A stretch of DNA of 64,000 nt from Olivibacter domesticus (lineage in GTDB: Bacteria; Bacteroidota; Bacteroidia; Sphingobacteriales; Sphingobacteriaceae), in contig NZ_FOAF01000008.1 in the NCBI RefSeq assembly GCF_900109575.1, forward strand, positions 1 to 64,000, given 5' to 3'. Below are positions 12,301 through 45,790 of the stretch, piece by piece. Numbering within the stretch: position 1 is the stretch's first letter; the number at the start of each line of letters is the position of its first letter. Below the pieces are notes generated by a model. The model saw only the letters and a program-made list of their open reading frames with translations. It searched no databases and had not been told where the DNA came from. The translations under genes and the position numbers were made by a program.

Positions 12301-12926
12301 TCTTTTAATGTAACTTCTAAGGTGCTTTTACCATTCAGTGGTATTTCTTGTGTAAGATAACCTGTGTAGGAAATTATCAGAATGGATTGTAGATCGATAT
12401 CTTTTAATTCGAAAATCCCATTATCATTGGTTACAGTAACCCGCTGTGTACCCTTCACTTTTATGGACGCTCTTGGCAGGGGAGTGCCAGTGGTATCCGT
12501 AATTTTTCCATTCACCGTATTCTGCTGCGCATGATCAAATGAATTTTTGTTTATTACCAATGGTTCCTTTTTCTTGATAACTACAGCATTGCCTTTGATG
12601 GTGTAAGTAAGTTGTTGATTTTGCAAAGCCAGCTGTAATACTTGAGAAATAGAGGCATCTTTCACGGAAAGATTAATAGGTTTAATTTGCTTTAAGAGCT
12701 TAGCATCATAGAAAAAATCAAAATTAGTTTGCTGATGAAGATTTGTCAAAAACTGCTCCACAGATAAATTTTTTGCCGAAAGGGTAATGTTTTGAGCATT
12801 CCCAGGCTTTGCATATCCTTGAAGGATACTGAGTAAAATCAGGAAACCTGTAATTTTCATGACCAAAAATGTTTGAAAATGAGGGATCGTCCAATCCCTT
12901 GATTTTAGGGCGTAGATTAATTGCAT
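9351..12926 (-). CDS. SusC/RagA TonB-dependent outer-membrane transporter with STN domain, locus 1
   Basis: A 1191-residue SusC-like transporter. In order it has an N-terminal signal region (to about 45), an STN secretin/TonB signalling domain (about 50-118) and a carboxypeptidase-regulatory-like domain (about 138-208). A TonB-box-like EVVVVGYG follows at 216-223, then the plug (containing VLIDGVEGDPSRLNPNDVA and IYGARGAFGVILITTK) and a 22-strand barrel ending in aromatic Phe. The STN domain implies signal relay to the FecR protein encoded upstream. The first Met gives a long leader as in many family entries; Met at 12860 would start directly at the signal peptide. It lies 113 bp after fecR, and this gap holds an opposite-strand terminator. 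Confidence 0.95.
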   Translation of the reverse strand: MQLIYALKSRDWTIPHFQTFLVMKITGFLILLSILQGYAKPGNAQNITLSAKNLSVEQFLTNLHQQTNFDFFYDAKLLKQIKPINLSVKDASISQVLQLALQNQQLTYTIKGNAVVIKKKEPLVINKNSFDHAQQNTVNGKITDTTGTPLPRASIKVKGTQRVTVTNDNGIFELKDIDLQSILIISYTGYLTQEIPLNGKSTLEVTLKEGFEGLDEVVVVGYGTQKKVNLTGAVDQVTSKVLENRAIPNLTQGLQGTIPNLNLVPLDGKPIQSPSYNVRGITSIGQGGNALVLIDGVEGDPSRLNPNDVATVSVLKDASSAAIYGARGAFGVILITTKNPNPDKTSVTYSFNHGIKSPVASPDFVTDGYQFATMFNDSWSAWNDYSQTPQNVNKTVKFSPEYLAEYQRRAADPSLPKVDVNEAGEYVYYGNTDWYKELYKDHNNSNDHNITISGSQGKSDFYVSGRMFNQSGLFRYNSDDYKSYNLRAKGSLQVFPWLRFANNADYSSIKYHNPLNVGEGGSIWRNISDEGHTMAPMFNPDGTLTYSAAYTVGDFWYGKNGVDMDRRVFRNTSSVNTNFFSNQLRVNADFTFQQTNNDEQRRRVQVPYSRIPGVIEYVGTNTNDLQFTDRLTDYLATNVYAEYEPKLTNGHYVKALVGFNNEQSTFKSLTTTRNGLIFEDGTDINLALGQSITTLGGREKWAIRGGFYRLNYAYKDRYLIETNGRYDGSSKFPEDQRFAFFPSISAGWRINSEPFWNVSPNFISELKLRASYGSLGNGSIASYAFQERYKITQSERILNGVRPQQTGQPGVLPDGLTWETSTTTNVGLDVSMLANRLTLVADAYIRKTTDMFTVGMTLPAVFGTDVPKGNYADLETKGWEVSVQWNDKFDLGAKPFHYNIRLNLADYQAEVTKYNNPDKRLSDYYAGQKLGEIWGFTTAGFYTSAEDIASSPTQILYKSSTSGQTLPGDIKFADLNGDGVIDKGTETVGNPGDMSIIGNTTPRYTYGINLGADWNRFSFSVFFQGVGKQDWYPGREAAIFWGQYNRPYNKIPTWQLGEIWSEDNPNAYLPRYRGYIAQNDQATLRQNQTRYLQNVAYIRMKNIQLGYMLPENWIKRLGMSATRIFVSGENLFTWSPLYKRTKDLDVENVWRSDTLLNPPTDAVADPNNNNSGNGNNYPMLKSISFGISATF

Positions 12927-12939
12927 ATATTTGTCTAAA

Positions 12940-13022
12940 TGGATATTGAAAAAATGAGTGCTATTCTTTTTTTGATTTCTAAATTCATAACCAGGGGCGC
13001 GGTAACGCTTCTGGTTTTTTTT
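12940..13022 (+). ncRNA. Candidate antisense RNA in the fecR-susC gap of locus 1
   Basis: On the strand opposite to the operon, AACCAGGGGCG (12989-12999) pairs with CGCTTCTGGTT (13006-13016). The stem is 11 bp with a 6-nt loop, followed by T8 (13015-13022). Two of the pairs are G-U in the plus-strand RNA and would be A-C mismatches in the minus-strand RNA, so the plus strand is the functional one. A TATATTTG at 12926-12933 fits the -7 element, giving an RNA of about 83 nt antisense to the susC leader. No good -33 is seen. DonS-type antisense RNAs of Bacteroides have this position; homology is inferred only from layout. Confidence 0.6.
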
Positions 13023-21885: not shown

Positions 21886-24800
21886 TTAGAAGCCTACGTT
21901 TACACCTAATGTAAAAGTACGTGCTTGGGGTACCGAATTTTTGTCAACACCGGGAGTTAAATTGTCATTTCCATTAGATGAAAGTTCTGGATCGGAACCG
22001 CTGTAGCCTGTAATTAAAAAGGCATTAAACACTTGTCCATAGATACGAACCGAGCTAATGCCCGATTTACCCAATAAGCGAGGAGGGATTCGATAACCCA
22101 GCGATACCGTTTGCAAACGTAGAAAATCGGCCTTCTCTACATTCTCAGAAATTGGATAAGAAGAACCATTAGAAATCACATCCCCATATACCAGGCGAGG
22201 AATATCTGTTATTTGTCCAGGTGTCGTCCAACGATCAAGTACATCGGTATAATTGTTCCAAAAACGCTGGTCGCGCAATGTTCCTTTGCTACCATTTTGA
22301 ATATAGTTGCCGCCCGAATAGACAAAATTTAAGTTAAGATCAAAATTCTTGTATTGGAGAGTATTGTCAAAACCACCGTACCAAGTGGGAAGCGCATTGC
22401 CGAGCAAATAATAATCACTCCCTGAGATAGCGGCAGCGGGGCTTCCATCTAAGTATGTCCACCTACTTTGTCCCGTTGCTACCGCATGGCTATATTGTAC
22501 GCGTTCACCATTACGATTAATAAAAATACGTTGCCCTGTTTCGGGATTAACGCCATCGGTTTTCGCACCGTATAAGCTGCCTACTGAATAACCCACACGT
22601 GTTATATTGGTTGCTTCGGCGGCAGTACTAGTTGACCCTACAATATCAGCGTTGCCTTCTGCCAGTGCAGTTACCCTGTTTTTTATAGTCGTAAAATTTA
22701 ATGAAGCATTCCAATTAAACGCATTCCGCTCAATTACGCGTGTATTAAATGCGAATTCAAAACCGCGGTTATACATAGCGCCAACATTTAACATAATGCC
22801 GTTATTGGGAATTCCCTTAGAAGGCGACTGCGGTGCATTTAAGATGAGTCCATTTACATCATTGTAGAAATAAGTCATCTCGACTTGAAAGCGGTCATGA
22901 AAGAAGGAGATATCGGCACCCAAATTAGTTTGGTCACTCGTTTCCCACTCTAAGCCAGTATTACCTGCTTGGTAGTAATTTAGCATAGGAGCATCTCCAT
23001 ATAAACCAGATTCATATAGATTGAGAGATGCAAATTTATTAGGGTTGTTTGCATTGCCTACACGACCCCAGCTAGCACGTAACTTTACACTATTCATGAT
23101 GGCGGCCAAACTCGAATTCTTATAGAAACTTTCCTCAGAGAGTGTCCAGCCTAGTGAGGCGCCGCCGAATACACCGAATTTAGAATCTTCCCCTAGAATG
23201 GAATTGCCATCCCGACGAAAGTTGATTGTCAAGAAATATCTCTTAGCATAATCGTAATTGATGCGAGAGATATAAGAAATGAGCGAAGATTGAGCGTCTA
23301 GCATGTTGGCGAAAGGAATAATCCGGCCGTAGCTTCCTTCAAAGTTTTCATAATATTGATCGGAAAGTTGTGTGCGGTTTGCTCCCCATCTATTAAAATC
23401 AAAATGTTGAACTTCATATCCCGCTAATAAGGCGAGGTTGTGCTCCGCAAAGTTTCTTCTAAAAGAAAGTGTGTTGCTCCAGTTCCAGGTATTAATATTA
23501 TTCATCGTGTTTGCCGCGTTTCCTCTAGCGGTGAAACCGGGGCCGTGCAAGGCGCTTTCGAAGGTCTTATTCTCAACTTTTGTCCAATCAAGGGCATAAC
23601 TGGTTTTAAAGTCCAAACCCTCCAATAATGTTACGGTGGCTCCCACATTGCCAATAATATGGTCATTCTGCGCATCATACCTATTTAAACCAAGTAGGGC
23701 AGTCGGATTATAAAAATTGCTAGGCACCGTGTTATTTCCCATTCCCATGGTGTTAGTGCTACTGTTTATGTTATAAGATCCATCTGTATTGTAGGGCCCC
23801 ACATTTGGAGCTGTAAGCCACGCTAGTCGAGCTATTCCGGTAAGTAAGAAGGCGTTGCCTCTTAAAGATCCTGTATTCGGTGACTGATTGTTACTACGGG
23901 TATAATTGGCGCCACCTGTTAATTTGAGCCAGTTAGTAAGGTTATGATCAACATTGAAACGGACACCAATACGATCAAATTCATTATTTTTGATGAAGCC
24001 CTTTTGGTCGGAATAATTGGTTGAGAAGAAATATTTAGTGTCTTCTGATCCGCCTGTAATATTCAAACTGTGATTGTGTGAGAATCCTGTTCTGTAAGTT
24101 TCGTCGTACCACCGGGTGTCTACTAAAGAACCATCGTCATTATATGTAGGAAAGAAATAGGCAGATGCTACTTTATCATTATTCGCATTGCCACTTGAAA
24201 TTTTTGAGTTTAATACAGCTTCATTTTTTATCATCATAAATTGTTCTGCATTCAACATAGTAGGCAATCTTACTGGATTCGAAATACCTGTCCAGCCTTC
24301 ATAATTTACACGGGCTTTGCCCGTCTTCCCTCTTTTGGTAGTAATGATCATCACGCCAGCTGCACCTCTTGAGCCATAAATAGAGGTAGATGCCGCATCT
24401 TTCAATATATTAATAGATTCAATATCGGCGGGGTTGATATCTCCGAGGGGGTTGTTCGACACGTTAGCATTAGATGATACGCTCTCACCCGCATTGATAG
24501 GAATTCCATCCACCACAATAAGTGGGTAAGAACTTTGAGAAATAGAGTTGACACCACGGATACGGATAACAGGTGCATTATTTAGAACCCCGTTAGGTTG
24601 GGCAATATTGACACCAGAAGCCCTACCTGCCAATGCTTGATCAAAACTTTGAACCGGCTGATCTGCCAATTTTTCTCCTCCAATGCGAGAAGCAGAACCT
24701 GTAAATTCTTCTTTTCGCTGTACGCCATAACCAACCACCACCACCTCACTTAATTCAGCAGCAACAGGCTCCAATTTAAAATTTAAAACAGTTTTGTCTG

Positions 24801-25401
24801 AAACGGCCATCTCAATTGGGCGATATCCCATATAAGAAACGATGATAATAGCATTTTTTGGGAGATTTTTCAACATGAAGTGACCATTCTCATTTGTGCT
24901 TGTACCGAGGCTTGTACCTTTTATCTTTACCGCAGCAAACGGAATGGGGTCTCCTTTCTCATCCGTTACTGTTCCAGTGATTATTTGCTGCTGTGTTTGC
25001 GGGTTTCTATTGATATTGCTTTTAATACCTGTATTTTTTTTCTTTTCAATGATAACATAGAACTTTTCATTGTTCTTGGTATAGGTTAAATTTTTTTCAG
25101 CCAGTGCTTTACTTAAAGCAGCCTCAACCGTAGTTAGCATTTTAAGTGCATCCATATCCACTTGATTGCTGCCGAGCAATCCGCTGCGGTATGCTATTGA
25201 AACGTTAAATTTTTCTTCCAGGGTTTTAAACGCTTGTTCCAAACTAACTAGTTGAATGGAATGAATATAAGCCGGATGAATTTTTCTTAAATGAATAAAT
25301 GTAGAACTATGCACAGCTCCATAGGCATTGAGAGGTAGGAGTGGTAGCGTAGTTACACCAAGGAGAAGAGTTAAACTGACATTTTTTAGAGTTTTACGCA
25401 T
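21886..25401 (-). CDS. SusC/RagA TonB-dependent outer-membrane transporter with STN domain, locus 2
   Basis: A 1171-residue transporter if it starts at 25401 (MRKTLKNVSLTLLLG, a clean signal peptide); the frame is open to a Met at 25455. Next come an STN-like domain (about 50-122), a carboxypeptidase-regulatory-like domain (about 140-215), a TonB-box-like EVVVVGYG (about 219-226), a plug with PLIVVDGIPINAGE and IYGSRGAAGVMIITTKRG, and a long beta-barrel ending VNVGF. It partners the SusD protein downstream and is expected to signal through the FecR encoded upstream. The gap to fecR is 219 bp or more, the longest of the three loci. Confidence 0.95.
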   Translation of the reverse strand: MRKTLKNVSLTLLLGVTTLPLLPLNAYGAVHSSTFIHLRKIHPAYIHSIQLVSLEQAFKTLEEKFNVSIAYRSGLLGSNQVDMDALKMLTTVEAALSKALAEKNLTYTKNNEKFYVIIEKKKNTGIKSNINRNPQTQQQIITGTVTDEKGDPIPFAAVKIKGTSLGTSTNENGHFMLKNLPKNAIIIVSYMGYRPIEMAVSDKTVLNFKLEPVAAELSEVVVVGYGVQRKEEFTGSASRIGGEKLADQPVQSFDQALAGRASGVNIAQPNGVLNNAPVIRIRGVNSISQSSYPLIVVDGIPINAGESVSSNANVSNNPLGDINPADIESINILKDAASTSIYGSRGAAGVMIITTKRGKTGKARVNYEGWTGISNPVRLPTMLNAEQFMMIKNEAVLNSKISSGNANNDKVASAYFFPTYNDDGSLVDTRWYDETYRTGFSHNHSLNITGGSEDTKYFFSTNYSDQKGFIKNNEFDRIGVRFNVDHNLTNWLKLTGGANYTRSNNQSPNTGSLRGNAFLLTGIARLAWLTAPNVGPYNTDGSYNINSSTNTMGMGNNTVPSNFYNPTALLGLNRYDAQNDHIIGNVGATVTLLEGLDFKTSYALDWTKVENKTFESALHGPGFTARGNAANTMNNINTWNWSNTLSFRRNFAEHNLALLAGYEVQHFDFNRWGANRTQLSDQYYENFEGSYGRIIPFANMLDAQSSLISYISRINYDYAKRYFLTINFRRDGNSILGEDSKFGVFGGASLGWTLSEESFYKNSSLAAIMNSVKLRASWGRVGNANNPNKFASLNLYESGLYGDAPMLNYYQAGNTGLEWETSDQTNLGADISFFHDRFQVEMTYFYNDVNGLILNAPQSPSKGIPNNGIMLNVGAMYNRGFEFAFNTRVIERNAFNWNASLNFTTIKNRVTALAEGNADIVGSTSTAAEATNITRVGYSVGSLYGAKTDGVNPETGQRIFINRNGERVQYSHAVATGQSRWTYLDGSPAAAISGSDYYLLGNALPTWYGGFDNTLQYKNFDLNLNFVYSGGNYIQNGSKGTLRDQRFWNNYTDVLDRWTTPGQITDIPRLVYGDVISNGSSYPISENVEKADFLRLQTVSLGYRIPPRLLGKSGISSVRIYGQVFNAFLITGYSGSDPELSSNGNDNLTPGVDKNSVPQARTFTLGVNVGF

Positions 25402-25623
25402 GATGAAGACTTGTTTAGATGATTTTAAAAAATGCAAAGCATTTCCATTAACCAATAAATGTGTTTTACTGATTTCACTTTTTAATGTAGATGAACCTAA
25501 ATTTTAGAGGTCAAAAGCTGGTTTAACAGCGGAGAATAATGAATGTTTTTTGTGGCTTCATAGTAATGGGTTTGATATTTATATTATTGTCGATTATATT
25601 TTCTATAACAATAAAAAGTCTTT

Positions 25624-25648
25624 ACATGCGATTGAGCACATGTTTTTT
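25624..25648 (+). terminator. Weak opposite-strand terminator candidate in the fecR-susC gap of locus 2
   Basis: ACATG (25624-25628) pairs with CATGT (25639-25643), followed by a run of T ending at 25648. It is on the strand opposite to the operon, in the same gap where loci 1 and 3 have much stronger structures. No TAnnTTTG element was found at a matching distance. Confidence 0.3.
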
Positions 25649-25674
25649 CGTTAAAAATCCTGCTATAAAGCGAT

Positions 25675-26628
25675 TTATTTACGATATATTGATTTAGGTA
25701 GCAATAAGAATTGATCGTCCTTTCTCATAACATTTAAATCATATAATAATGCAATATTCGATATCATTTCTTTATGACTGACATTGAGGGGTAGAGAGCC
25801 TGAAGCATCCCTTTCTAACAATTTACTGTCTGTCACTTTCAGTCTTAACCCGTAAGTTTCTGATAATGTGGATAACACATATGAAAGTGTACCATGATTT
25901 AATACGAGCTTATACTGCTGCCAAATAAAAAAATCATCAATTGGTGCATTGTCTTTAAGTCTATACCCTGTACTGTTTTCCGTTAAAGAGAGGTACTGCC
26001 CAGGATGGATGAGTATTTGATGTTTACCTTTTTTGCTGTTATATCGAAAATTGATTTTTCCATTGCGGAGGGCTACCAGCGTCTCTACCGTTCTATTTCG
26101 TACATTAAATTCGGTACCTAATACATCAATATAGGTACTGTCGGATACATGTACCCTAAAAGGTTGATTGTTTTGTCGGTGTACGACCTGAAAAGTCCCT
26201 TCTCCCTTGATCCAAACTTCCCGTTCTGATGAAAAGCTATATTTATGATAAACCAAACTAGAGTTACCGTTTAGTTTAACAAGGGAGCCATCTGGCAATT
26301 TTAACTGTTTTATTTGACCAAACGCAGTTTTATAGGTTAATTTTTTAGGTGCAGATAATAATACAACTATGCTGGTGAATACCAATATAATAGAAGCTGC
26401 ATATAACACAGGCTTCCACCGGAACTTTAAAGAAAATGATGTAGCAGGTTGATAAGATATGTTGGATTTTGTCTTGATCGCTGACAGCATGTTACTGCGA
26501 AGATTGCGTCTAGTTTGCGGCCTTAGTTCTTCCGTATAACTATGCAGCTCATCCACTTCATTATACCATTTTTCGAAGCGTTCGTTAAGAGCTCTTTCCT
26601 CTTCCTTATGTTGATTGTATGGATCCAT
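25675..26628 (-). CDS. FecR family anti-sigma factor, locus 2
   Basis: A 317-residue FecR-like protein. The charged cytoplasmic N-terminus (1-70) precedes one membrane helix at about 73-93 (VLYAASIILVFTSIVVLLS). The periplasmic FecR domain contains LKLPDGSLVKLNGNSSLVYH, GEGTFQVVHRQNNQPFRVHV and VLGTEFNVRN. A short DUF4974-like end includes LNHGTLSYVLSTLSETYGL. It lacks the long insert seen in the FecR proteins of loci 1 and 3 and is about 60-80 residues shorter. It lies 56 bp after its sigma gene and should control it in response to the locus 2 SusC protein. Confidence 0.92.
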   Translation of the reverse strand: MDPYNQHKEEERALNERFEKWYNEVDELHSYTEELRPQTRRNLRSNMLSAIKTKSNISYQPATSFSLKFRWKPVLYAASIILVFTSIVVLLSAPKKLTYKTAFGQIKQLKLPDGSLVKLNGNSSLVYHKYSFSSEREVWIKGEGTFQVVHRQNNQPFRVHVSDSTYIDVLGTEFNVRNRTVETLVALRNGKINFRYNSKKGKHQILIHPGQYLSLTENSTGYRLKDNAPIDDFFIWQQYKLVLNHGTLSYVLSTLSETYGLRLKVTDSKLLERDASGSLPLNVSHKEMISNIALLYDLNVMRKDDQFLLLPKSIYRK

Positions 26629-34736: not shown

Positions 34737-36716
34737 TTATTTTATTGCCGAGCTATTTATAGAGATATCCGTAATTTTGGTTGGTAGCCAAACTTGCATC
34801 TCGCCCATACCTCGATTCGCCCAAGAGTAATAGGGAACTGCGGTAATGGTTGCTCTTTTTAGGTTTACCGATTGTGCATCTGTAGCCGGACTGACTACTG
34901 GAAGATTACTTTGGATAGTTACAATACCTCCAAGTAAATCTTTTTGATACGACGTTGTAAAAGAAACATCTTCAGGCACAAAAAAGTTCGAGACAGATTG
35001 TTGATCTGCCTGTTCCACACAGTATACGAGGGGGCCCCTTTGTAATGCTATACGGTTTTTGTTAGCTGAAACCTTATCACTAGCGCCTACTTTTTTAACC
35101 TCCATAGGCAATGAAACGCTTAATACATCACCCTTGTTCCAAGCTCTGTCAATGACGGCATATCCCTTTTCCATCCTATAATCTACGACTTTTCCATTGA
35201 TGGATATTTCTATTTTATCCTGTTTCCCATTAACAAAATGATAGGTGTCGCCAGGTACAGGTTGATTCTGCGTCCAGCCAGGAATTCGGATGTGCATAGG
35301 AAAAGACATTTTCTTGTTTGGTGTAACGGTTAGTTTAATATTCCCCTCCCAAGGGTAATTGCTTTGTTGTGTGATGTCTACCTGTCCCTTTTTGAGTAGT
35401 ACACTGGTATTGCTACCAACAAATAAATTAACCCAAATAGACTGATCAGATTTTGCATAGATATAATTACCTAATGACTCCACTAGTCGCGCTATGTTGG
35501 ATGGACAGCAAGCGGTGCCGAACCACTCACTTCTAGAATAGTTCCCTTGTGAAGCAAGTGGATTTCCATAAAAAAAACGATCGCCACTCAATGATAGACC
35601 ATCAAGTGCCCCGTTGTACAAACTTCTTTCAAGCACATCAAAATACTTAGCCTCACCAGTAAGTAAATTCATGCGCTGATTCCAGAAAACCATACCAACA
35701 GAAGCACATGTTTCGCAATAGGCAGTGGCGTTGGGCAAATCGTAGTCTTGGCTGAAACCTTCATTTTTTGCTGTTGAACCGATTCCACCAGTAATATACA
35801 TGTTTCGATATACCACATCTTGCCAAACATCTTGCATGGCCTGCATATAATCGGCATTTTGCGTAGCGGCACCCACGTCAGCCGCACCTGTATAAAGATA
35901 CATAGCCCGCACCGCATGGCCCGTAATTTCCCGTTGATCCATTAGAGGTATGGCATCTTGGCAACGAGCTGGATCCTTCCATTCATCCCAAGTTTGTCCT
36001 TTGCCATAACCACGTCCACGCTGCTGAAGAAACCAATCCGCCAATTGCAGATAACGTTCATTTTGCGTAGTATGATAGAGTTTGACGAGTGCTAATTCGA
36101 TTTCCTGATGCCCACTGACCCAATGCCTATTTGGTAGTCGAAATGTCGTATCAATGTGGTCAGCAAAGCGAATGGCCACGTCCAGCAGCTTTCTTTTACC
36201 TGTGGTGTTATAGTAAGCAATTGCAGCTTCCATTAAATGTCCGGCACAGTAATCTTCATGCATATCCATATCGGTCCATCGTTTATCTAATCCGTTTAGT
36301 GTAAAATAGGTGTTTAAATAACCATCAGATAGCTGAGCGGCTGCAATCTTATCGATCCATTCGTCAGCTTTATCAACTAAAGCTTGATTAGGTTGGTTTT
36401 TTAATGAGTAGGCGATGGCTTCCAATGCTTTGTAAACATCCGAATCATCATAATAAATGCCCTCATGTTTTTCACCTGTTTTACGAGCAACTTTTTCAAA
36501 ATTGCGAATACGTGGAGTTTTGACTTCGGTTTGCTCAATGCATACAGGAATGGTCACGGTGCTCACCGTTTTTATCTTGGGTGTCCAAAACTGATCAGTT
36601 ATTTCAACTTTAGAGAAATTAACGGGTTGTATCGTGTTGACTTTGTTCTGCGCGTATGCCACTGCTCCGGAATGTAGGAGCAAGCTAGTACTTATATAGA
36701 TGAATGTATTTTTCAT
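34737..36716 (-). CDS. Glycoside hydrolase family 127-type beta-L-arabinofuranosidase
   Basis: A 659-residue exported enzyme (signal peptide 1-22, ending AVAYAQ). It is an (alpha/alpha)6-barrel protein of the DUF1680/GH127 family. The family's metal-thiolate site is intact: Glu335 and Cys337 in the YCETCAS segment, and Cys403-Cys404 in TACCPSNIARL. These match the zinc-binding Glu, Cys and the Cys nucleophile known from HypBA1. NEGFSQDYDLPN at 318-329 carries the second conserved Glu. Predicted activity is removal of terminal beta-L-arabinofuranose from arabinosylated proteins or plant glycans. It is the last gene of locus 3, 11 bp after another DUF1680 gene. Confidence 0.92.
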   Translation of the reverse strand: MKNTFIYISTSLLLHSGAVAYAQNKVNTIQPVNFSKVEITDQFWTPKIKTVSTVTIPVCIEQTEVKTPRIRNFEKVARKTGEKHEGIYYDDSDVYKALEAIAYSLKNQPNQALVDKADEWIDKIAAAQLSDGYLNTYFTLNGLDKRWTDMDMHEDYCAGHLMEAAIAYYNTTGKRKLLDVAIRFADHIDTTFRLPNRHWVSGHQEIELALVKLYHTTQNERYLQLADWFLQQRGRGYGKGQTWDEWKDPARCQDAIPLMDQREITGHAVRAMYLYTGAADVGAATQNADYMQAMQDVWQDVVYRNMYITGGIGSTAKNEGFSQDYDLPNATAYCETCASVGMVFWNQRMNLLTGEAKYFDVLERSLYNGALDGLSLSGDRFFYGNPLASQGNYSRSEWFGTACCPSNIARLVESLGNYIYAKSDQSIWVNLFVGSNTSVLLKKGQVDITQQSNYPWEGNIKLTVTPNKKMSFPMHIRIPGWTQNQPVPGDTYHFVNGKQDKIEISINGKVVDYRMEKGYAVIDRAWNKGDVLSVSLPMEVKKVGASDKVSANKNRIALQRGPLVYCVEQADQQSVSNFFVPEDVSFTTSYQKDLLGGIVTIQSNLPVVSPATDAQSVNLKRATITAVPYYSWANRGMGEMQVWLPTKITDISINSSAIK

Positions 36717-36727
36717 AATTACTTGTT

Positions 36728-38812
36728 TTAATTAACTACCGGGAACTGAGTGATACGAAGAGTAGAGCAGCCATAAGGAACCAGCACTATGGGTGTTTCT
36801 TCTCCTTTGGCAGATGAAAACTGATGAGGAAGAGGACCTGCCATATTTTTATATAAGGTCCATTCAGGGATCTTCTTGGCCTTCGTTTTTATAAGGATGG
36901 GCGCACCGGCTAAATTCCAGGGGTACTGCCCGTTTGTCTGGTTTTTAATCACCTCGAATCCGTTCTGAGGGTCGTTTATTGCTTTTTCCAGTAACCCGTA
37001 ATTCCATTCCGATTTAGGATATACCTCATAGAAATCGCCGAAGTATTCCGCATTACTTACTTTGCGCCAGTCTTCCTCTATCTTAAGTGCATATACCAAA
37101 GGGCCTCTTTCTACAGCAACCGATAGTTCAGCCCAACGGCTGGTTTCGATATGCATTGGTAAAACCAAGCTAACCTGGTCGCCTTCTTTCCAGCTGCGAT
37201 TAATTTTTACAATGCTACCGGGCTTAGTTATTTCACTTATGGTATCTCCATTGATAGTTATTTTTGCATCTTTTGCCCAGTACGGGATACGGAGATGGAA
37301 CGGAAAGCTAACTGCTTTCTTTGTCTTTATGGTGAAACGGATAGTCTCGTCAAATGGATAATGGGTGTCTTCAGTAATATGGATGGATTGACCATCGGCC
37401 ACTTTTGCATCTACTTCGCTGGGCCCATAAAGCAGGGCAGCTATACCTTTATCTGCTGTTTGATACCATAGGTTTTGCACAAATTTAGGCCATCCTTGAT
37501 GCATATTGGCGGTGCAACAAGGATAACCGGTAAGGAGTCCATAACACTGATCAGTGCCTTGGTGCCCACCATCTTCAAAAAAGTTGCGTTCGGCTCTAGA
37601 AATCAATACCTGATTAGCACTCTGGAAGTATTGACGATGGTTGAAGTCGTCGGTTGCCTGCGTAGGCATGGCGTTATATGCAATTTTTTCCAAGAGATCT
37701 GCAAATTCTGTATCACCGGTAATGGAAAGCATGCTCTCTAGGGAAAACAGCATTTCGACTACCGAACAAAACTCAATACCTTGAGTTGGGGCATTGCCGT
37801 GTAGGGGCTCATCGCCACCATACATGCCTTGCGCCTGCCCGTGAAAAATTGCAATATCATTATAAGCTCTTTTTACCGCTTTTATGTAATTTGTATCTGG
37901 ATTTTGCTGGTAATAAATGATGGGTGACTTAATACCTTGCGCTAAATTAACACAGTGAAAGCTTTGTAGCTGGCCAACATGCAATCTATTAATTGCTTGC
38001 TGATCGAATGGATAGGTGTTCCCGGTGTTGTAAGGATAGAGGTGTGAGATACCGTTTTGCTTGTCGTTATATTGATTTGAAAAGACAGTAGCGTAAGGAA
38101 ATGTTTGCTGGTAAAGCAGATTCCCCAATTCTAATAGAAAAGACTCTCCCGTTTGGTTATACAACCAGTATACCACCATTAGGTTATCTGCTCCCCGGCG
38201 ATTTCCCCAGAAAGACCATTGGTCTAAAGGGTGTTTAGGTAGTTCTTGGAGCTGATACCTAAAATAATTGGTTAAGGTTTTAATAACCCTTTTATCACCT
38301 GTGGCATTATAATATTGTTGTAGCACCTTTAACATTACCATTCGTGGCCACCAATCTTCAACGGGCTCCTTTTGGATTCCTGGTTCAGGTTTTGATTTTT
38401 CTTTAAGTGGCCTTGGTCCGATATATCCGTCATCACGTTGGTTCCTTATAGTCCATTCAATCCATGGCTTTACTTTTCTAATTAACTCATCATCTTTTAA
38501 AATGTAAGCAAGGGGCAGTAAACCATCTAACCAGTAAGGACCTCTTTCCCAAGCATCGCCATCACCACCAAGCCAGCCATTTCTGTTGCCAACCACTTGC
38601 GGGTATCGTTCATCTAAATGACCTGTTAAGCCGGTTTTCATACGTGTTAATTGATTTTTTAACCAGTCTTTGGGCTGAATAGCACCTAATGGCAATTCCA
38701 TATAAGGATTAGCGCGTAATGGTTTACGATTCTGTAACTGAGCCTTGCCTTCGGCACACAGGCCGAACGCAAGGAGGATAAAGCAAAAAAACTGTTTTGT
38801 TTTCATCGTCAT
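36728..38812 (-). CDS. DUF1680 (GH127-superfamily) glycosidase, divergent second member
   Basis: A 694-residue exported protein (signal about 1-24, ending EGKAQ). Overall layout matches DUF1680 enzymes: GAIQPKDWLKNQLTRMKTGL, GPYWLDGLLPLAYIL, GTDQCYGLLTG and a C-terminal beta-domain with LPMHIETSRWAELSVAVERG. The metal-thiolate residues are retained as Glu347 and Cys349 (IEFCS) and Cys432-Cys433 (YPCCTANMH). Surrounding residues differ strongly from the neighbour, so the specificity probably differs, for example a different arabinoside linkage. It stands between the SusD gene (15 bp) and the GH127-type gene (11 bp) in locus 3. Confidence 0.9.
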   Translation of the reverse strand: MTMKTKQFFCFILLAFGLCAEGKAQLQNRKPLRANPYMELPLGAIQPKDWLKNQLTRMKTGLTGHLDERYPQVVGNRNGWLGGDGDAWERGPYWLDGLLPLAYILKDDELIRKVKPWIEWTIRNQRDDGYIGPRPLKEKSKPEPGIQKEPVEDWWPRMVMLKVLQQYYNATGDKRVIKTLTNYFRYQLQELPKHPLDQWSFWGNRRGADNLMVVYWLYNQTGESFLLELGNLLYQQTFPYATVFSNQYNDKQNGISHLYPYNTGNTYPFDQQAINRLHVGQLQSFHCVNLAQGIKSPIIYYQQNPDTNYIKAVKRAYNDIAIFHGQAQGMYGGDEPLHGNAPTQGIEFCSVVEMLFSLESMLSITGDTEFADLLEKIAYNAMPTQATDDFNHRQYFQSANQVLISRAERNFFEDGGHQGTDQCYGLLTGYPCCTANMHQGWPKFVQNLWYQTADKGIAALLYGPSEVDAKVADGQSIHITEDTHYPFDETIRFTIKTKKAVSFPFHLRIPYWAKDAKITINGDTISEITKPGSIVKINRSWKEGDQVSLVLPMHIETSRWAELSVAVERGPLVYALKIEEDWRKVSNAEYFGDFYEVYPKSEWNYGLLEKAINDPQNGFEVIKNQTNGQYPWNLAGAPILIKTKAKKIPEWTLYKNMAGPLPHQFSSAKGEETPIVLVPYGCSTLRITQFPVVN

Positions 38813-38827
38813 ATGGAGAATAAAATA

Positions 38828-40435
38828 TTAATAACCTTGATTTTGCGTTAGGTTAGGATTCGAATTAATAGTCTGTTGCGGAATCGGAAAAGTAATACGG
38901 TAGTCGCCATTTGGCTTGTGCGAGAGCCAGCTTTTAGTGGTAAATATACCGAAACGAATCATGTCACGACGACGGTGACCTTCCCAAGCAAACTCCCAAC
39001 CTAGCTCATCCAGTAGGCGTCCATATTGTACCGGTGCTGTATTCCCTTCGTCTACAAGCTTGTAGTCTTCTACATAGCCATACTTATAACGACTATTTTG
39101 CTGGAGGTCGTTTCCAGTTACCGTCGCCTTCGCTGGATTGTTTTTAAAAGCACGAGCTCTTACCTGACTGACCAATGTGGAAGCTTCATTGGGATTGCCG
39201 TTTCGTAAGAGGCATTCAGCTTTCATCAATAGGATATCAGCATAGCGAAAGAAGGGGAAATCATTATCTAGATTATGTAGTGCCCCCATTTTTACGGTGA
39301 ATTTATTCATACGATAACCTTCCGATTCGCCAGTATATAAGCCATCGGGAATATCTTTGGTGAATACGAGTGGTTTACCCGCCTGGTCATAAGCACCCAA
39401 AAGTGGTGTTTTACCATCAGCAGCAAATTGAGGGCCCATTAACCAGGTGTCGGCTAATCGTCCATCAAGCGGATCATAAGTATCAATAAATTGCGGAACA
39501 GCCATAGCCGAACCCGAACCCCATGGTGTTGCTTGCATATTTGCTTTAGCCTTTAGTGAGGCATGCCAAGAAAACATATGGAACAGGAAACCGCCACCAA
39601 CTGTTTCTTCAAAAGGAATGGCAAATACGATTTCCGGTGAGTTTTCATTCTGAGTTGTAAATACATCTCTGAAGTTGGCGTTCAAGCTATATTTGGCAGA
39701 ATTGATCACATCATCACATTGCTGAATGCATTCTTGCCATGCCGGTGTACCTGTATACACACCAGCATTGAGATATACGTTGGCCAATAATGCTTTTGCA
39801 GCCCATTTATTAAAGCGTCCATATAACAACCGACTATTATCTTCACTTAAGTTGGGCAGTGCGGCATTGACTTCTGAAACAATGAATTGATAAAGCTCGG
39901 TTCTTGACGATTTTGCCTGTAATTCAGTGCCTGTACTGGTAACTAAGGGGGCATCGCCAAAATTGTCACAAATGAGCCAGTAAAAAAAGGCTCGTGCTAT
40001 CTTTACTTCGGCTAGTACGCCTTCTTTTGTAAGCCCGTCTGTTAACGGAATTTTGTTTTCTTCAAGCAAACTGATAATACGGTTTGCATTGATCGCACCT
40101 TTATAGAGGCTATTCCACATGGCATTCATTTGCTCGTTTTCTGAATTCCAAGTATGGAGATGAATACGCTTATAGATGCCACCATCATCCCAGCCGGAGG
40201 CATTGGCAGGCATAACTAGCTCGTCTGAGGAGGTTTCCTGCACACCGGCCCAGTTATGATGATCAAAAAGTTCACGCATATTGGCATAAAGAACACCGGT
40301 GGCCTGGTATGCATTTGTATAGGTCAATTGATCATCAGTCACTTCTGTATATAGCATTTCATCTAGATCGTTGTTACAGGCGGCGAGCAACAATATCAGC
40401 AGAAGGGTGGTTATGTTATATTTAATTGTTTTCAT
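38828..40435 (-). CDS. RagB/SusD family outer-membrane lipoprotein, locus 3
   Basis: A 535-residue SusD-like lipoprotein with lipobox LLLAACNND. Characteristic features are AEVKIARAFFYWLICDNFGDAPLV, FFRYADILLMKAECLLRNGN and the C-terminal ELGWEFAWEGHRRRDMIRFG. The end FPIPQQTINSNPNLTQNQGY is a SusD terminus. It lies 11 bp after its susC gene. With two DUF1680 enzymes downstream, it likely binds an arabinofuranose-containing glycan or glycopeptide. Confidence 0.95.
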   Translation of the reverse strand: MKTIKYNITTLLLILLLAACNNDLDEMLYTEVTDDQLTYTNAYQATGVLYANMRELFDHHNWAGVQETSSDELVMPANASGWDDGGIYKRIHLHTWNSENEQMNAMWNSLYKGAINANRIISLLEENKIPLTDGLTKEGVLAEVKIARAFFYWLICDNFGDAPLVTSTGTELQAKSSRTELYQFIVSEVNAALPNLSEDNSRLLYGRFNKWAAKALLANVYLNAGVYTGTPAWQECIQQCDDVINSAKYSLNANFRDVFTTQNENSPEIVFAIPFEETVGGGFLFHMFSWHASLKAKANMQATPWGSGSAMAVPQFIDTYDPLDGRLADTWLMGPQFAADGKTPLLGAYDQAGKPLVFTKDIPDGLYTGESEGYRMNKFTVKMGALHNLDNDFPFFRYADILLMKAECLLRNGNPNEASTLVSQVRARAFKNNPAKATVTGNDLQQNSRYKYGYVEDYKLVDEGNTAPVQYGRLLDELGWEFAWEGHRRRDMIRFGIFTTKSWLSHKPNGDYRITFPIPQQTINSNPNLTQNQGY

Positions 40436-40446
40436 AAATCAGGTAA

Positions 40447-43400
40447 TTAGAAGGTTAAAAATGCACCGAGTGTATAGCTGGTTGTGGATGGATAACGATT
40501 TTTGTTGTCAATTCCCGGTGAGAGGCCATTGATGCTCACTTCAGGATCAATGCCTTTGTAACCAGTGATTGTTGCTAAATTCGAGACCGCTCCATAGAGT
40601 CGGATGCGTTTGATATACTTGCTCTTAAGCCCAACATTGTAACCCAGGGTGACATTATCTATTTTCCAATAATCGCCATCTTCAATATAGTAACTTACAT
40701 AATTAAGAGATTGATCGTCAGCGAGTGGTCGTTTGTCGAAAATGTTATCATAAGCCGAATTAAGTAAATTCCCACGGGTCAGCATTACTGGGTTGCCGTA
40801 AAACATCTCGGGCATGTTCAGAATCTGAAAACCAAATGCACCACGCATGGTGATATTTAAGTCGAAATTTTTGTAGACGAAGGTGTTGTTCCAGCTGGCA
40901 TAATACTGTGGTAATCCATTTCCAATGATTTGTTTGTCATCGGCTTGCTGATTGGAAATAGATTTTGGATTACCATCTTTACCCTCAATTATCCAATAAC
41001 CATTCTCATCAATATCAATGGTTTTGAATCCATAAAAATTTCCAATGGGCTGACCTACTTGCACCCGATGGGTACGTTGTTGGATAGGTTCACCCGTTTC
41101 ACCAGCATCAAAGTAACCGCTGGCCAGTTGGAAATTCTCATCCGAAAGCGAAAGAATCTTGTTTCTGTTCGTAGAGAAATTAACAGAAGTACGCCATTGA
41201 AAATTGTCGGATTGCACCGGGATACCATTTATTTGTACCTCTAAACCCTTGTTTTGCATGGAAGCTGCGTTGGCACGTATGGTACTATATAAATAGGGAG
41301 GCGTTGGAACAGGATAATCCATCAGCAGATCTTTGGTAGTGCGTTTGTAATAATCTATGGAACCGGAAATACGATTATCAAAGAAACCGTAATCCACACC
41401 GATGTTTAACTCCTCTTTCTTTTCCCAGCGTAAATCGGGATTAGGATTTAAAGAAGGATTTACGACTTGTATCCACTGCCCGTCTACTAAGCTATAGGTG
41501 TCAAAATTAATGAGGCTTAAAGACCGATATGGATCAGTCGGTTCAGTACCTGTAATACCAAAACCAGCACGAAATTTCAAATTGTTGAGCACCTTGAGAT
41601 CCCGAAGAAAATCCTCGCGAATGGCATTCCAACCAATAGAAATGGCCGGGAAATTACCCCATTTATAGTTTCTTCCGAATTTAGATGACCCTTCATGTCG
41701 TATACTGGCCATAAGTAAGTATTTCTCTTTGTAATTATAATTTATACGGAAGAAATACCCCACTAACTTGTTTTCGGTTTGGATCGAATTTTCAGGTGCT
41801 TGTCCGCGTTTTAAGGCCAAACCTGCACCCATATTATTATATGAGAAATCGTCAGTAGGAAAATCCCAATTTTGCATCCAGTAATCTTGGTAATTGTTGT
41901 TTCGCCAACTGTAACCTACTAAACCAGTAATTTCATGATCTTTGAATATTTTATGATAGTCGGCCGTTAGTTCCAATAAATCTTCTTGTGTCCTAGTGGT
42001 GCCTCTAGAAGCATATCCATTTTTACCATCTCTGATAGTGGAAAAATGTTTTTTGGTTTCGTAGTAGCCTCTTGTACTATTATATAAATCGCGAGAGAGT
42101 AAGAGTTTGACGTTGATGTCATTATTTGGTGAATAGGTAATATTACCAAAAGTGCGGAAATTGTTGTTTTGAACAAGCCCCTGTGTTTCTTCTAAAAGTG
42201 CTACCGGATTCATGTAATCCGTTTTCTCAATACGTTCAATCCAGACACCATTGTCGTCTTTCACGCGATCGGTAGGGTTGAAGGTAAGGCCATTCCTGTA
42301 GATATCGCCTCTAAAGCTATTACTCTCCGTACTTGTGAAATTTTCGGGCTGATCGGCGCTTGCATAGTACTTTTGTTGATAGCCATTAATATTGGCATTC
42401 AACTTTAGTTTACCATCAAACATTTTATGGTTAAATTCGATTCGTGGAAAAAGTACCTTGTTATCCGATCGTTTGACAATACCTTCGATGCTTCTATAAT
42501 TTATATTGGCAATGTAGTTGGTATTACTGTCTCCCCCCTTTAAACTGATGTTGTACACCTGTGATATAGGCGTTTGTGTAATCTCATCCAGCCAATTGGT
42601 TTCATAACCATAATCAGTAGCACCTGGTCTACCTTCTGCAACACGTTGGCGATATTGAGCAGCATTCATAAAGTCCAACCGCCTAGCAATGCTTTGAGTA
42701 GTAAAGTAGGTGTTGATATCAATAGTGGCTGGCGTTTTTCCGTTCACCTTTTTTGTGGTGATTAGGATGACCCCATTGGTGCCGCGCGTACCGTATATCG
42801 CTGCCGCGGAGCCATCCTTAAGAATATCGATAGATTCGATATCTTCTGGTGCAACTGTAAATAAAGTACCCGGCACACCATCAATTAAAACCAAGGGGGT
42901 GCTGCTTGCCAAGATGGAAGGAACACCACGTAAATTTACTTGTGCAGTAGCAACAGGATTTGCATCTGACGATACAATGTTCAATCCTGCAACTTTACCA
43001 CGAATCAACTGAGCCGCATCGTTTACGGATCCCTGTACAAAATCTTCAGATTTGACGCTGGCTATAGCAGTAGTAATTTGTTCTCGCTTTTGTGTGCCAT
43101 AGCCAACAACCACTACTTCGTTAAGCGTATTGGCATCCTCTTTCATGATCACATTTACTACGCTTTGTTGGCCAGAGGAGATTTCCTGTACAACATATCC
43201 TAAATAGCTGAATACTAGTAAAGTATTATTTTTCGGTACATTAATTTTATAGTAACCGTCCGTATTGGTAATCGTCCCAATGTTTGTTCCTTTTACTTTA
43301 ACACTTACCCGTTGAAGTGGTAAGCCCTTTTCATCCGTTAGCTTTCCCGTGATTTGCAACTGAATTGACTTAGGAATAGCAGGGAGGATTGGGGCGCTTT

Positions 43401-43746
43401 TTAGCACAATGGTTTGGCGGATTATTTTGTAAGACAGGGGTTGATTCTCTAAACTTTTCTTCAACACTTCCTCAATAGCCGCGTTTTCTACTGCTATTGA
43501 AATTAATCCTGCTTTTTCAAGGTCAATTTTGTTAAATAAAAAATGGTAACCCGTTTGCGCTTCTATCAATTTAAGTATTCTGGCTACAGAACTGTGTTTT
43601 TCATTGAGTGTGATTCCTTGACTATAGCTTTTAGCACTCACTTGTACGAGTATTAAAAACATGAAAAAAGCAGTAAGTTTCATAGTCAATAAAATTTTGT
43701 GATGATATGGCCATTTCAATAAAAAGGCCCTTGAAATAAAATTCAT
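40447..43746 (-). CDS. SusC/RagA TonB-dependent outer-membrane transporter with STN domain, locus 3
   Basis: A 1099-residue transporter. Signal region about 1-44, STN domain about 45-117 (SSVARILKLIEAQTGYHFLF), carboxypeptidase-regulatory-like domain about 130-205, TonB-box-like EVVVVGYG at 210-217. The plug contains PLVLIDGVPGTLFTVAPED and IYGTRGTNGVILITTKK, and the barrel ends TLGAFLTF. A later Met (43683) would give the usual MKLTAFFMFLI signal start directly. It forms a pair with the SusD protein 11 bp downstream. The STN domain again predicts signalling to FecR, 189 bp upstream. Confidence 0.95.
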   Translation of the reverse strand: MNFISRAFLLKWPYHHKILLTMKLTAFFMFLILVQVSAKSYSQGITLNEKHSSVARILKLIEAQTGYHFLFNKIDLEKAGLISIAVENAAIEEVLKKSLENQPLSYKIIRQTIVLKSAPILPAIPKSIQLQITGKLTDEKGLPLQRVSVKVKGTNIGTITNTDGYYKINVPKNNTLLVFSYLGYVVQEISSGQQSVVNVIMKEDANTLNEVVVVGYGTQKREQITTAIASVKSEDFVQGSVNDAAQLIRGKVAGLNIVSSDANPVATAQVNLRGVPSILASSTPLVLIDGVPGTLFTVAPEDIESIDILKDGSAAAIYGTRGTNGVILITTKKVNGKTPATIDINTYFTTQSIARRLDFMNAAQYRQRVAEGRPGATDYGYETNWLDEITQTPISQVYNISLKGGDSNTNYIANINYRSIEGIVKRSDNKVLFPRIEFNHKMFDGKLKLNANINGYQQKYYASADQPENFTSTESNSFRGDIYRNGLTFNPTDRVKDDNGVWIERIEKTDYMNPVALLEETQGLVQNNNFRTFGNITYSPNNDINVKLLLSRDLYNSTRGYYETKKHFSTIRDGKNGYASRGTTRTQEDLLELTADYHKIFKDHEITGLVGYSWRNNNYQDYWMQNWDFPTDDFSYNNMGAGLALKRGQAPENSIQTENKLVGYFFRINYNYKEKYLLMASIRHEGSSKFGRNYKWGNFPAISIGWNAIREDFLRDLKVLNNLKFRAGFGITGTEPTDPYRSLSLINFDTYSLVDGQWIQVVNPSLNPNPDLRWEKKEELNIGVDYGFFDNRISGSIDYYKRTTKDLLMDYPVPTPPYLYSTIRANAASMQNKGLEVQINGIPVQSDNFQWRTSVNFSTNRNKILSLSDENFQLASGYFDAGETGEPIQQRTHRVQVGQPIGNFYGFKTIDIDENGYWIIEGKDGNPKSISNQQADDKQIIGNGLPQYYASWNNTFVYKNFDLNITMRGAFGFQILNMPEMFYGNPVMLTRGNLLNSAYDNIFDKRPLADDQSLNYVSYYIEDGDYWKIDNVTLGYNVGLKSKYIKRIRLYGAVSNLATITGYKGIDPEVSINGLSPGIDNKNRYPSTTSYTLGAFLTF

Positions 43747-43760
43747 TACTTTTGTTTGTT

Positions 43761-43842
43761 TGGGTTAAATAAAATATTGATTCATCGATGTGGAAAAATC
43801 CAAGCATATGCCGGGGAGTGCTGGTACCACTCTTCGGTTTTT
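43761..43842 (+). ncRNA. Candidate antisense RNA in the fecR-susC gap of locus 3
   Basis: On the strand opposite to the operon, CCGGGGAGTG (43811-43820) pairs with CACTCTTCGG (43828-43837), followed by T5. Two pairs are G-U in the plus-strand RNA and A-C mismatches on the other strand. TACTTTTG at 43747-43754 fits the -7 element and lies directly against the susC start codon, as in locus 1. The predicted RNA is about 82 nt, matching 83 nt at locus 1. No -33 at the right spacing is visible. Confidence 0.58.
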
Positions 43843-43935
43843 ATTAGATTTCTATTATTAAATCCTTTTAGCTGTCTATAATTGCTGGTTGCGTTTTCAT
43901 AATTTAAAATTTAAGTAAATAATGTTTATGTATGG

Positions 43936-45132
43936 TTAGTTTTTTATTATGATATTTCTTTCTTTTATTTCATAGGCTACCCCAGTAAATGCTAACATGC
44001 TCATTAGCTCATCGAGATTAGCACTTCTAGACACACTACCATTGAATAATTTTTTTGAATTCTTACCTGTATATATTACCTTAACGTTATACCATCGCGC
44101 TACTTGGTTCATAACCTCTTTCATACTTGCATCCTTAAATAAAAAGAGCCCGTTTTTCCACGCTAATTCTACTTCAGGATCAACGCCATCTTTCAGTTGG
44201 AATTGATTGTTTGCCGTAAGTATGCTCTGTTCTCCCGGTTTTAGTAGTTGTGTTTTTTCTCCCCGCTTTATTTTTATGGCCCCATCAAAAAGTGTGGTTT
44301 TTTGGGTGGTTTCGTCTTTATAGCCTGAAATACTAAAGGCAGTTCCTAATACTTGCACTTCTATTCGGTTAGTTACTACTTTAAAAGGTTGATTTATTTT
44401 CTTTGCTATTTCAAAGTAAGCTTCGCCTATCAACTCTACTCTTCTTTCTGCACCGATAAATTTTGACGGGAATTTTATAGATGTTTCGGCATTTAACCAA
44501 ACTTTACTACCATCAGGAAGGATAATTTGATATTGCCCTCCCCTCGGCGTATAAATGGTGTTTACGCCTATAGAAGCTTCTTTGTCGTATTGTATATGGC
44601 GCGCATTAAAAGCTAGTTGTCCTTCAGCAGTTTTTTTTATGATGGTGCCTTCATCCCTTGCTAAAACGCCCTTATTAGCACTATCTAGCAAGATGATCGT
44701 ACCATTGGCCATGCTGAGTGTGGCCCTATTGCCCCCCGCAGAAATATCACTTGTTTGCTTAATGGGTAAGGTACGCTGATTGTCTTTTTGTAAGCTATAA
44801 AATTTAAAAAAAACTAAACCAAAGGTAATTGCACCGATTATTGCAGCGATGCTTAATTTATATATAGGCGAATACTTCCTTTTAGAAAAATGAGTTTGTT
44901 GACTGATTTTGGTATCCTTTAAAATATTCTGAAGTATATTTTGGCTTTGATCAAGGTTAAGAACAGGATTAGTGGTGTCAGTCTGCTCATAAATTTGCTC
45001 CATTATTTTGTTTATCTCTTCTATTTCAAGCGTATGTAACAGGGTGGATAGCTCTTCAATTTCTGCCGCTGTAGCAGATTTATTGAGGTATTTAGTTACA
45101 AGAAAAGTGAATCTAAGAGATGCTTTTTTCAT
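43936..45132 (-). CDS. FecR family anti-sigma factor, locus 3
   Basis: A 398-residue FecR-like protein. The N-terminal cytoplasmic region (1-88) precedes a membrane helix at about 92-111 (LSIAAIIGAITFGLVFFKF). The periplasmic FecR domain has TPRGGQYQIILPDGSKVWLNA, VELIGEAYFEIAK and VLGTAFSISGYKD. The C-terminal DUF4974 domain has LFKDASMKEVMNQVARWYNV. It lies 100 bp after its sigma gene and should hold that sigma factor inactive until the locus 3 SusC protein signals. Confidence 0.93.
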   Translation of the reverse strand: MKKASLRFTFLVTKYLNKSATAAEIEELSTLLHTLEIEEINKIMEQIYEQTDTTNPVLNLDQSQNILQNILKDTKISQQTHFSKRKYSPIYKLSIAAIIGAITFGLVFFKFYSLQKDNQRTLPIKQTSDISAGGNRATLSMANGTIILLDSANKGVLARDEGTIIKKTAEGQLAFNARHIQYDKEASIGVNTIYTPRGGQYQIILPDGSKVWLNAETSIKFPSKFIGAERRVELIGEAYFEIAKKINQPFKVVTNRIEVQVLGTAFSISGYKDETTQKTTLFDGAIKIKRGEKTQLLKPGEQSILTANNQFQLKDGVDPEVELAWKNGLFLFKDASMKEVMNQVARWYNVKVIYTGKNSKKLFNGSVSRSANLDELMSMLAFTGVAYEIKERNIIIKN

Positions 45133-45232: not shown

Positions 45233-45790
45233 TTACTTTGTAAGGAAAAGAAGCAATAAATAAATATTTTTTTTAACGAAGCTTTTTATTGAAACAATCG
45301 CAAGCTTTAGATAGCTTTTCACCGTCTCTGGAGAAATACCCATTAAAGATGCTATCTCTGAATATTTTAAACGTTGTTGTTTACTAAGTACATAGACTTT
45401 TTGTTGTTGGGGAGGTAGTTCATTAATAGCCTTATCCAGTAATAAATGATAGAAGGAGGGACTCTCTTCAGCATCGTTGATGACACTTTCAGTTTCCAAA
45501 TATTGCATCAGCGCTCTTTCTTTTACAGCTTGCTTTAAACAATTAAGCGTATGATTTTTTGAAATCGTAAATAGGTAGCCTTTGAAATTCTTGATATCAG
45601 TTAGTTGTTCTCTATTGATCCATATTTTTAGGAAGGTATCCTGAACTACCTCTTCAGTTAATGTATAGGAATCAGTTAATTTGAAGACAAAAGCAGCTAG
45701 ATGTTGATGATGACGATGAAAGAGGAGAGCGAACGCATGTTCGCTGCCCTTTGATACTTGTAATATCAATTCCTGCTCATTAACATCCAT
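45233..45790 (-). CDS. ECF-type RNA polymerase sigma-70 factor, locus 3
   Basis: A 185-residue ECF sigma factor. Region 2 is at about 17-85 (AFALLFHRHHQHLAAFVFKL, then VVQDTFLKIWINREQLTD). Region 4 is at about 120-175 (LPPQQQKVYVLSKQQRLKYS, then helix-turn-helix IASLMGISPETVKSYLKLAI). The hydrophobic C-terminal tail resembles those of loci 1 and 2. It has the clearest housekeeping-type promoter of the three loci (45817-45846), so basal sigma production is probably constitutive and activity is controlled by FecR. Confidence 0.94.
   Translation of the reverse strand: MDVNEQELILQVSKGSEHAFALLFHRHHQHLAAFVFKLTDSYTLTEEVVQDTFLKIWINREQLTDIKNFKGYLFTISKNHTLNCLKQAVKERALMQYLETESVINDAEESPSFYHLLLDKAINELPPQQQKVYVLSKQQRLKYSEIASLMGISPETVKSYLKLAIVSIKSFVKKNIYLLLLFLTK

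Follow-up and report, generated by a model that had tools for sequence, protein, structure and literature searches.

A putative DonS-type antisense RNA gene across the susC leader of a FecR-linked locus in Olivibacter domesticus

Positions 43758-43842 (+) of the window (the whole stretch of 64,000 nucleotides of Olivibacter domesticus DNA that was analysed) most probably correspond to the gene of a cis-antisense RNA of the DonS type, which would keep the facing susC gene repressed until it is driven by its cognate ECF sigma factor. A promoter box and a terminator are found at a fixed spacing, are restricted to fecR-linked susC genes and are conserved in a strand-specific manner. As put forward in the initial annotation, an antisense RNA encoded over the susC leader remains the putative function that best accounts for the box, the terminator and the controls.

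Elements of the candidate RNA at locus 3

Locus 3 is a polysaccharide utilization locus (PUL) under surface signalling. Its genes, the predicted elements of the antisense RNA and the counterparts of these elements at locus 1 are the following:

34737..36716 (-), second GH127 enzyme of locus 3
36728..38812 (-), GH127 beta-L-arabinofuranosidase-like enzyme of locus 3
38828..40435 (-), susD of locus 3
40447..43746 (-), target gene, SusC TonB-dependent transporter of 1099 aa with a weak STN match
43936..45132 (-), fecR, anti-sigma factor (FecR, FecR_C)
45233..45790 (-), ECF sigma factor
43747..43754 (+), -7 promoter box TACTTTTG (TAnnTTTG) for the antisense RNA, with a position conserved across the family
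43758..43842 (+), predicted antisense RNA of about 85 nt, from promoter box, terminator and fold, with a 5' end inferred to +/- 3 nt
43758..43805 (+), 5' stem-loop domain predicted by folding, in which GUUUGGGUU pairs with AAUCCAAGC around an inner 7-bp helix; similar fold in the orthologue (78% identity)
43810..43838 (+, functional strand), terminator hairpin GCCGGGGAGTG-CTGGTAC-CACTCTTCGGT, 11 pairs
43838..43842 (+), terminator U-run (T-run)
12926..12933 (+), locus 1 counterpart, -7 box TATATTTG overlapping the susC start
12989..13016 (+), locus 1 counterpart, antisense terminator hairpin AACCAGGGGCGCGGTAACGCTTCTGGTT, then a T-run

The -7 element had been described as touching the susC start, and the box does directly adjoin the start codon (CAT at 43744-43746, minus strand); the -33 element of this promoter is weak. 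The hairpin lies 56 nt from the box and is followed by the U-run, which gives a predicted RNA of about 82-86 nt, its start being placed to within about 3 nt, in agreement with the length of about 82 nt proposed initially. The 10-bp stem with two G-U pairs noted earlier was recovered as the core of the 11-pair hairpin, and the five T reported after it are those of 43838-43842. This hairpin is the sole terminator-like site in 43600-44000, where 0.2 would be expected, and the fold of 43758-43843 (86 nt) reaches -29.5 kcal/mol, with a z-score of -5.05 against dinucleotide shuffles. No Rfam match above the gathering score was obtained in 43700-43900, 5S rRNA being the only match in the window, and a search for sigma-70 promoters gave no excess.

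Two other candidate functions were discarded: a small ORF of 19 codons within the RNA (ATGTGGAAAAATCC...), because the Olivibacter jilunii orthologue stops after three codons, and a type I toxin-antitoxin RNA, because the sense gene encodes the 1099-aa SusC and no small hydrophobic toxin lies opposite. The fecR-susC gap of locus 3 also contains a short ORF, MKTQPAIIDS, at 43868-43900 (-), and locus 2 has one resembling it (MKPQKTFIILRC); both are devoid of a Shine-Dalgarno sequence and may be due to chance.

The recurrence of the same arrangement 31 kb away was confirmed by the box and hairpin of locus 1. The likeness that had been seen between the A/T-rich starts of the two RNAs (AAAT...ATATTGA) was not upheld: across the family no column of this kind is conserved, the sequence at this place in the locus 3 orthologue is ATGTTG, and the two predicted 5' ends resemble each other by chance. 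Locus 2 (21886-26628) has neither box nor terminator; its SusC has no STN and its FecR no FecR_C match, which makes it a fitting negative.

Occurrence at fecR-linked susC genes

In the genome (6.78 Mb, 23 contigs, about 50 fecR genes), the susC gene following each fecR was tested for the module, i.e. a box with at most 1 mismatch together with an antisense terminator. The module was found at 28 of the 45 fecR-linked susC genes, and about 30 such putative silencers may be counted in this genome. Among 235 control genes drawn from 400 kb of sampled stretches, neither the module nor the box alone was found (0/235 each), and 8 had an antisense hairpin alone; 40 susC genes without fecR yielded a single exact box and a single doubtful co-occurrence of box and terminator. 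The Fisher p-values for fecR-linked susC genes (4e-27 against other genes, 1e-9 against fecR-free susC) are overstated, because paralogous loci and orthologue pairs share ancestry and are not independent. The earlier argument that two loci with equal geometry speak against chance holds at this scale (28/45 vs 0/235 and 1/40), and the same controls answer the question raised initially of whether such stems are equally frequent outside fecR-susC gaps, which they are not.

STN is present in 27 of the 28 SusC proteins having the module. About one third of the fecR-linked loci, some of them carrying STN, lack the module by these criteria, and it is therefore not obligatory. The initial hairpin search covered the antisense strand only and used fixed thresholds, so that some loci scored as negative (e.g. 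L008, L020, L021, L027) do have a box or a hairpin. Separately, a strong antisense terminator was observed in the fecR-susC gap of L039, L027 and L004 of this genome, where the annotated start lacks an exact box, for which the start-codon annotation or a displaced promoter are candidate explanations.

The module was also found at 24/39 and 38/78 loci when four other genomes of the same genus were examined. In the pooled set of 162 fecR-linked susC genes (five genomes, one genus), 82 exact boxes near the start are distributed over offsets -5 (25), -1 (42) and 0 (15) from the ATG, with almost none beyond these three positions (13.7 per position vs 0.14 elsewhere); exact boxes on the sense strand number 6 in all. 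Among named relatives, O. jilunii has the SusC closest to that of locus 3 (83% identity), and this orthologous locus retains the box, the stem and the 5' domain. Relatives from Chitinophagaceae bacterium DXS, Puteibacter and Prolixibacteraceae, whose SusC keeps the N-terminal STN part next to a fecR-sized neighbour, carry the start-codon box, with a terminator in 2 of 3, and the module is mostly absent from STN-less relatives. A phylum-wide sample provided more cases in other families. In Bacteroides cellulosilyticus, an antisense terminator accompanies TATCTTTG or TATATTTG at offset -1 in five fecR loci, and a sixth has a weaker version of this layout. An identical antisense terminator hairpin was seen at L122 (G025) and L135 (G029), loci from two genomes belonging to a single other genus, which may be orthologues or the result of a recent transfer.

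Over the family, the predicted RNAs measure 66-130 nt (median 91), and their portion upstream of the terminator has more structure than shuffled sequences (mean z -2.3; 50/90 below -2). Many members, including locus 3, have a GGTTAA-like 5' end that pairs with the nucleotides immediately preceding the terminator. Covariation in this 5' domain is only moderate (33 pairs kept on the antisense strand, 13 on the sense strand only, 11 double changes, 49 breaks), and its structure is therefore a suggestion.

Two sequence words were noticed apart from the module. TTAACC (GGTTAA on the antisense RNA) lies on the sense strand 8-37 nt upstream of the susC ATG at 35 loci (L009-L041 and others) against 9.8 expected, about half of the occurrences being near the RNA 5' end. 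At fecR 3' ends of this genus, before the antisense terminator, AAGGAGG, a perfect Shine-Dalgarno sequence, is 37 times as frequent as in the background (55 in 21.5 kb vs 55 in 800 kb); it is not confined to a single reading frame and continues to occur beyond the stop codon. Examples are 13058-13064 (-) at the end of the locus 1 fecR and, after the fecR stop, L023, L194, L230, L178 and others. It is followed by an ATG and a stop within 5 codons in 31/55 cases vs 1/55 in the background, and in 6/7 of those located after the fecR stop. Among the loci examined, the pattern is found in this genus only, and it resembles a mini-ORF with a Shine-Dalgarno start, an unusual thing in Bacteroidota, which rarely start translation in this way. 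A common ECF promoter motif for susC was searched for on the sense strand and not found, the enriched words being the stems themselves, AGGAGG and TTAACC.

Strand under selection and rival explanations

Conservation of the stems was examined in 51 orthologue pairs, defined as reciprocal best FecR hits with at least 45% identity, by projecting the stem of one orthologue onto the other via the alignment, without requiring that the second stem fold. Of the projected pairs, 453 were unchanged, 26 had changed on both sides and still paired, and 28 were broken. One-sided changes kept pairing on the antisense strand in 48 cases, vs 3 that paired on the sense strand only. The T-run occurs on the antisense side of the hairpin only (5.8 vs 2.5 T in 8 nt). 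From this pair retention and this T-run, it follows that the product is an antisense-strand terminator. At locus 3, terminator pairing is retained in the orthologue (L095/L162, CGGAGAGTG..CACTCTCCG). The G-U pairs, regarded initially as a special feature, lose that role: the ordinary gene-end terminators of the genome have the same share of them as the antisense stems (11.4% vs 12.7%), with the same strand asymmetry.

These data also bear on the idea that the hairpin belongs to the sense strand, as a structure of the susC mRNA leader or a terminator of the fecR transcript, the box then being part of the translation start signal. The hairpin does sit between fecR and susC and a weaker version of it can form on the sense strand, but the sense side has no T-run, pairs are retained 48:3 toward the antisense strand and the 235 other starts are without the box, so that this explanation appears very improbable. 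A chance box and hairpin in AT-rich DNA can be practically dismissed: a hairpin by itself does occur elsewhere, as in the 8 control genes mentioned above, but the combination with the box is absent from the controls and conserved across species, which refutes chance at the level of the family, and conservation in O. jilunii opposes it for locus 3 taken alone.

A more serious competitor, although still an unlikely one, is that promoter and terminator act on the DNA, short antisense transcription interfering with that of susC by placing a polymerase on the susC start, with the RNA as a by-product. The box would then be expected where it is, pinned on the start codon and not anywhere in the leader, and the stems of paralogues are mostly unrelated, as if the RNA sequence mattered little beyond complementarity. 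However, a terminator placed at a fixed distance would be superfluous for interference, which would also not account for an RNA structured beyond its terminator across the family and for the domain of locus 3 that is kept in the orthologue.

Proposed function and comparison with known systems

In the favoured reading, that of a repressing cis-antisense RNA, a housekeeping sigma factor recognising the TAnnTTTG promoter would transcribe a short RNA with two hairpins that exactly complements the stretch of susC leader lying between about 12 and about 100 nt before the AUG; the overlap would be partial if susC transcription starts inside this region. Pairing with the leader would block ribosome loading and/or expose the duplex to RNase, and a susC transcript made without induction, from a leaky ECF promoter or by read-through from fecR, would thereby stay untranslated. 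When a glycan is sensed by STN-SusC and FecR, the freed ECF sigma factor would raise susC mRNA beyond the antisense RNA, and polymerase crossing the antisense promoter on the susC start codon might also shut that promoter off; given the position of the box, activity of the antisense promoter and entry of polymerase into susC may be mutually exclusive. Transcription of the RNA, pairing, repression, exclusion and the read-through argument are what we infer from the arrangement. Sense terminators are nearly absent from fecR-susC gaps, none being seen for fecR at locus 3, and this, together with the restriction to STN-SusC/FecR loci, suggests a silencer of the uninduced susC transcript, including fecR read-through.

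As a tentative extension, somewhat less likely true than not, STN-SusC/FecR ECF circuits across Bacteroidota would each carry a dedicated antisense silencer, one to one, with its promoter fixed on the susC start codon, such that silencer transcription and susC expression exclude each other by position and dozens of paralogous circuits per cell (about 30 here) are kept quiet and insulated from fecR read-through. An architecture fixed in about half of the fecR-linked susC genes of five genomes bears on how Bacteroidota silence many similar nutrient-uptake circuits. The signature (start-codon box and antisense terminator) allows such RNAs to be annotated without RNA-seq and ties them to STN/FecR signalling, and exclusion by a promoter on the start codon is a testable mechanism.

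With FecI/FecR/FecA-type signalling, locus 3 shares the STN receptor, the anti-sigma factor and the ECF sigma factor; an antisense RNA is not known to be part of the classical system. Cis-antisense RNAs that target mRNA leaders, such as those of the CopA/CopT type in plasmid copy control, are structured RNAs fully complementary to a leader and transcribed from their own promoter. The predicted RNA of locus 3 has the same complementarity to the leader, structure and own promoter, but it lies in a chromosomal nutrient-uptake locus under ECF control and has no sequence relation to them.

The closest likeness is with the Bacteroides RNAs. PUL-associated RNAs were reportedly linked to ECF sigma/anti-sigma (FecR) PULs by Cao and colleagues in 2016. 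In B. thetaiotaomicron, 32 PUL-associated antisense RNAs have been described (PMC10994844), some of which are anticorrelated with susC (PMC7366714, PMC10994844), and in B. fragilis DonS represses its cognate PUL by a mechanism called unknown (PMC11697453). The candidate of locus 3 is likewise divergent to a susC homologue and lies over its 5' region, with a TAnnTTTG-type promoter and an intrinsic terminator; its length of about 85 nt (66-130 nt in the family) compares with the 78-128 nt of the expressed Bacteroides RNAs (PMC7366714, PMC10994844). The module is present at fecR-linked susC genes, with 1 doubtful case at a fecR-free one, and the same layout is found in the fecR-susC gaps of B. 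cellulosilyticus. The present RNAs differ in that they are predicted from sequence in Olivibacter and in further families and orders of Bacteroidota, in their putative 5' stem-loop domain, and possibly in having the box exactly on the susC start codon. A literature search found no description of such RNAs outside Bacteroides, which is weak evidence as most subscription papers were beyond its reach. By every testable feature, the predicted RNA of locus 3 very probably belongs with the DonS-type RNAs, a kind already known from Bacteroides, and the present analysis extends this knowledge to their breadth of occurrence, to a promoter fixed in position, to an association with STN-SusC/FecR and to conservation specific to one strand.
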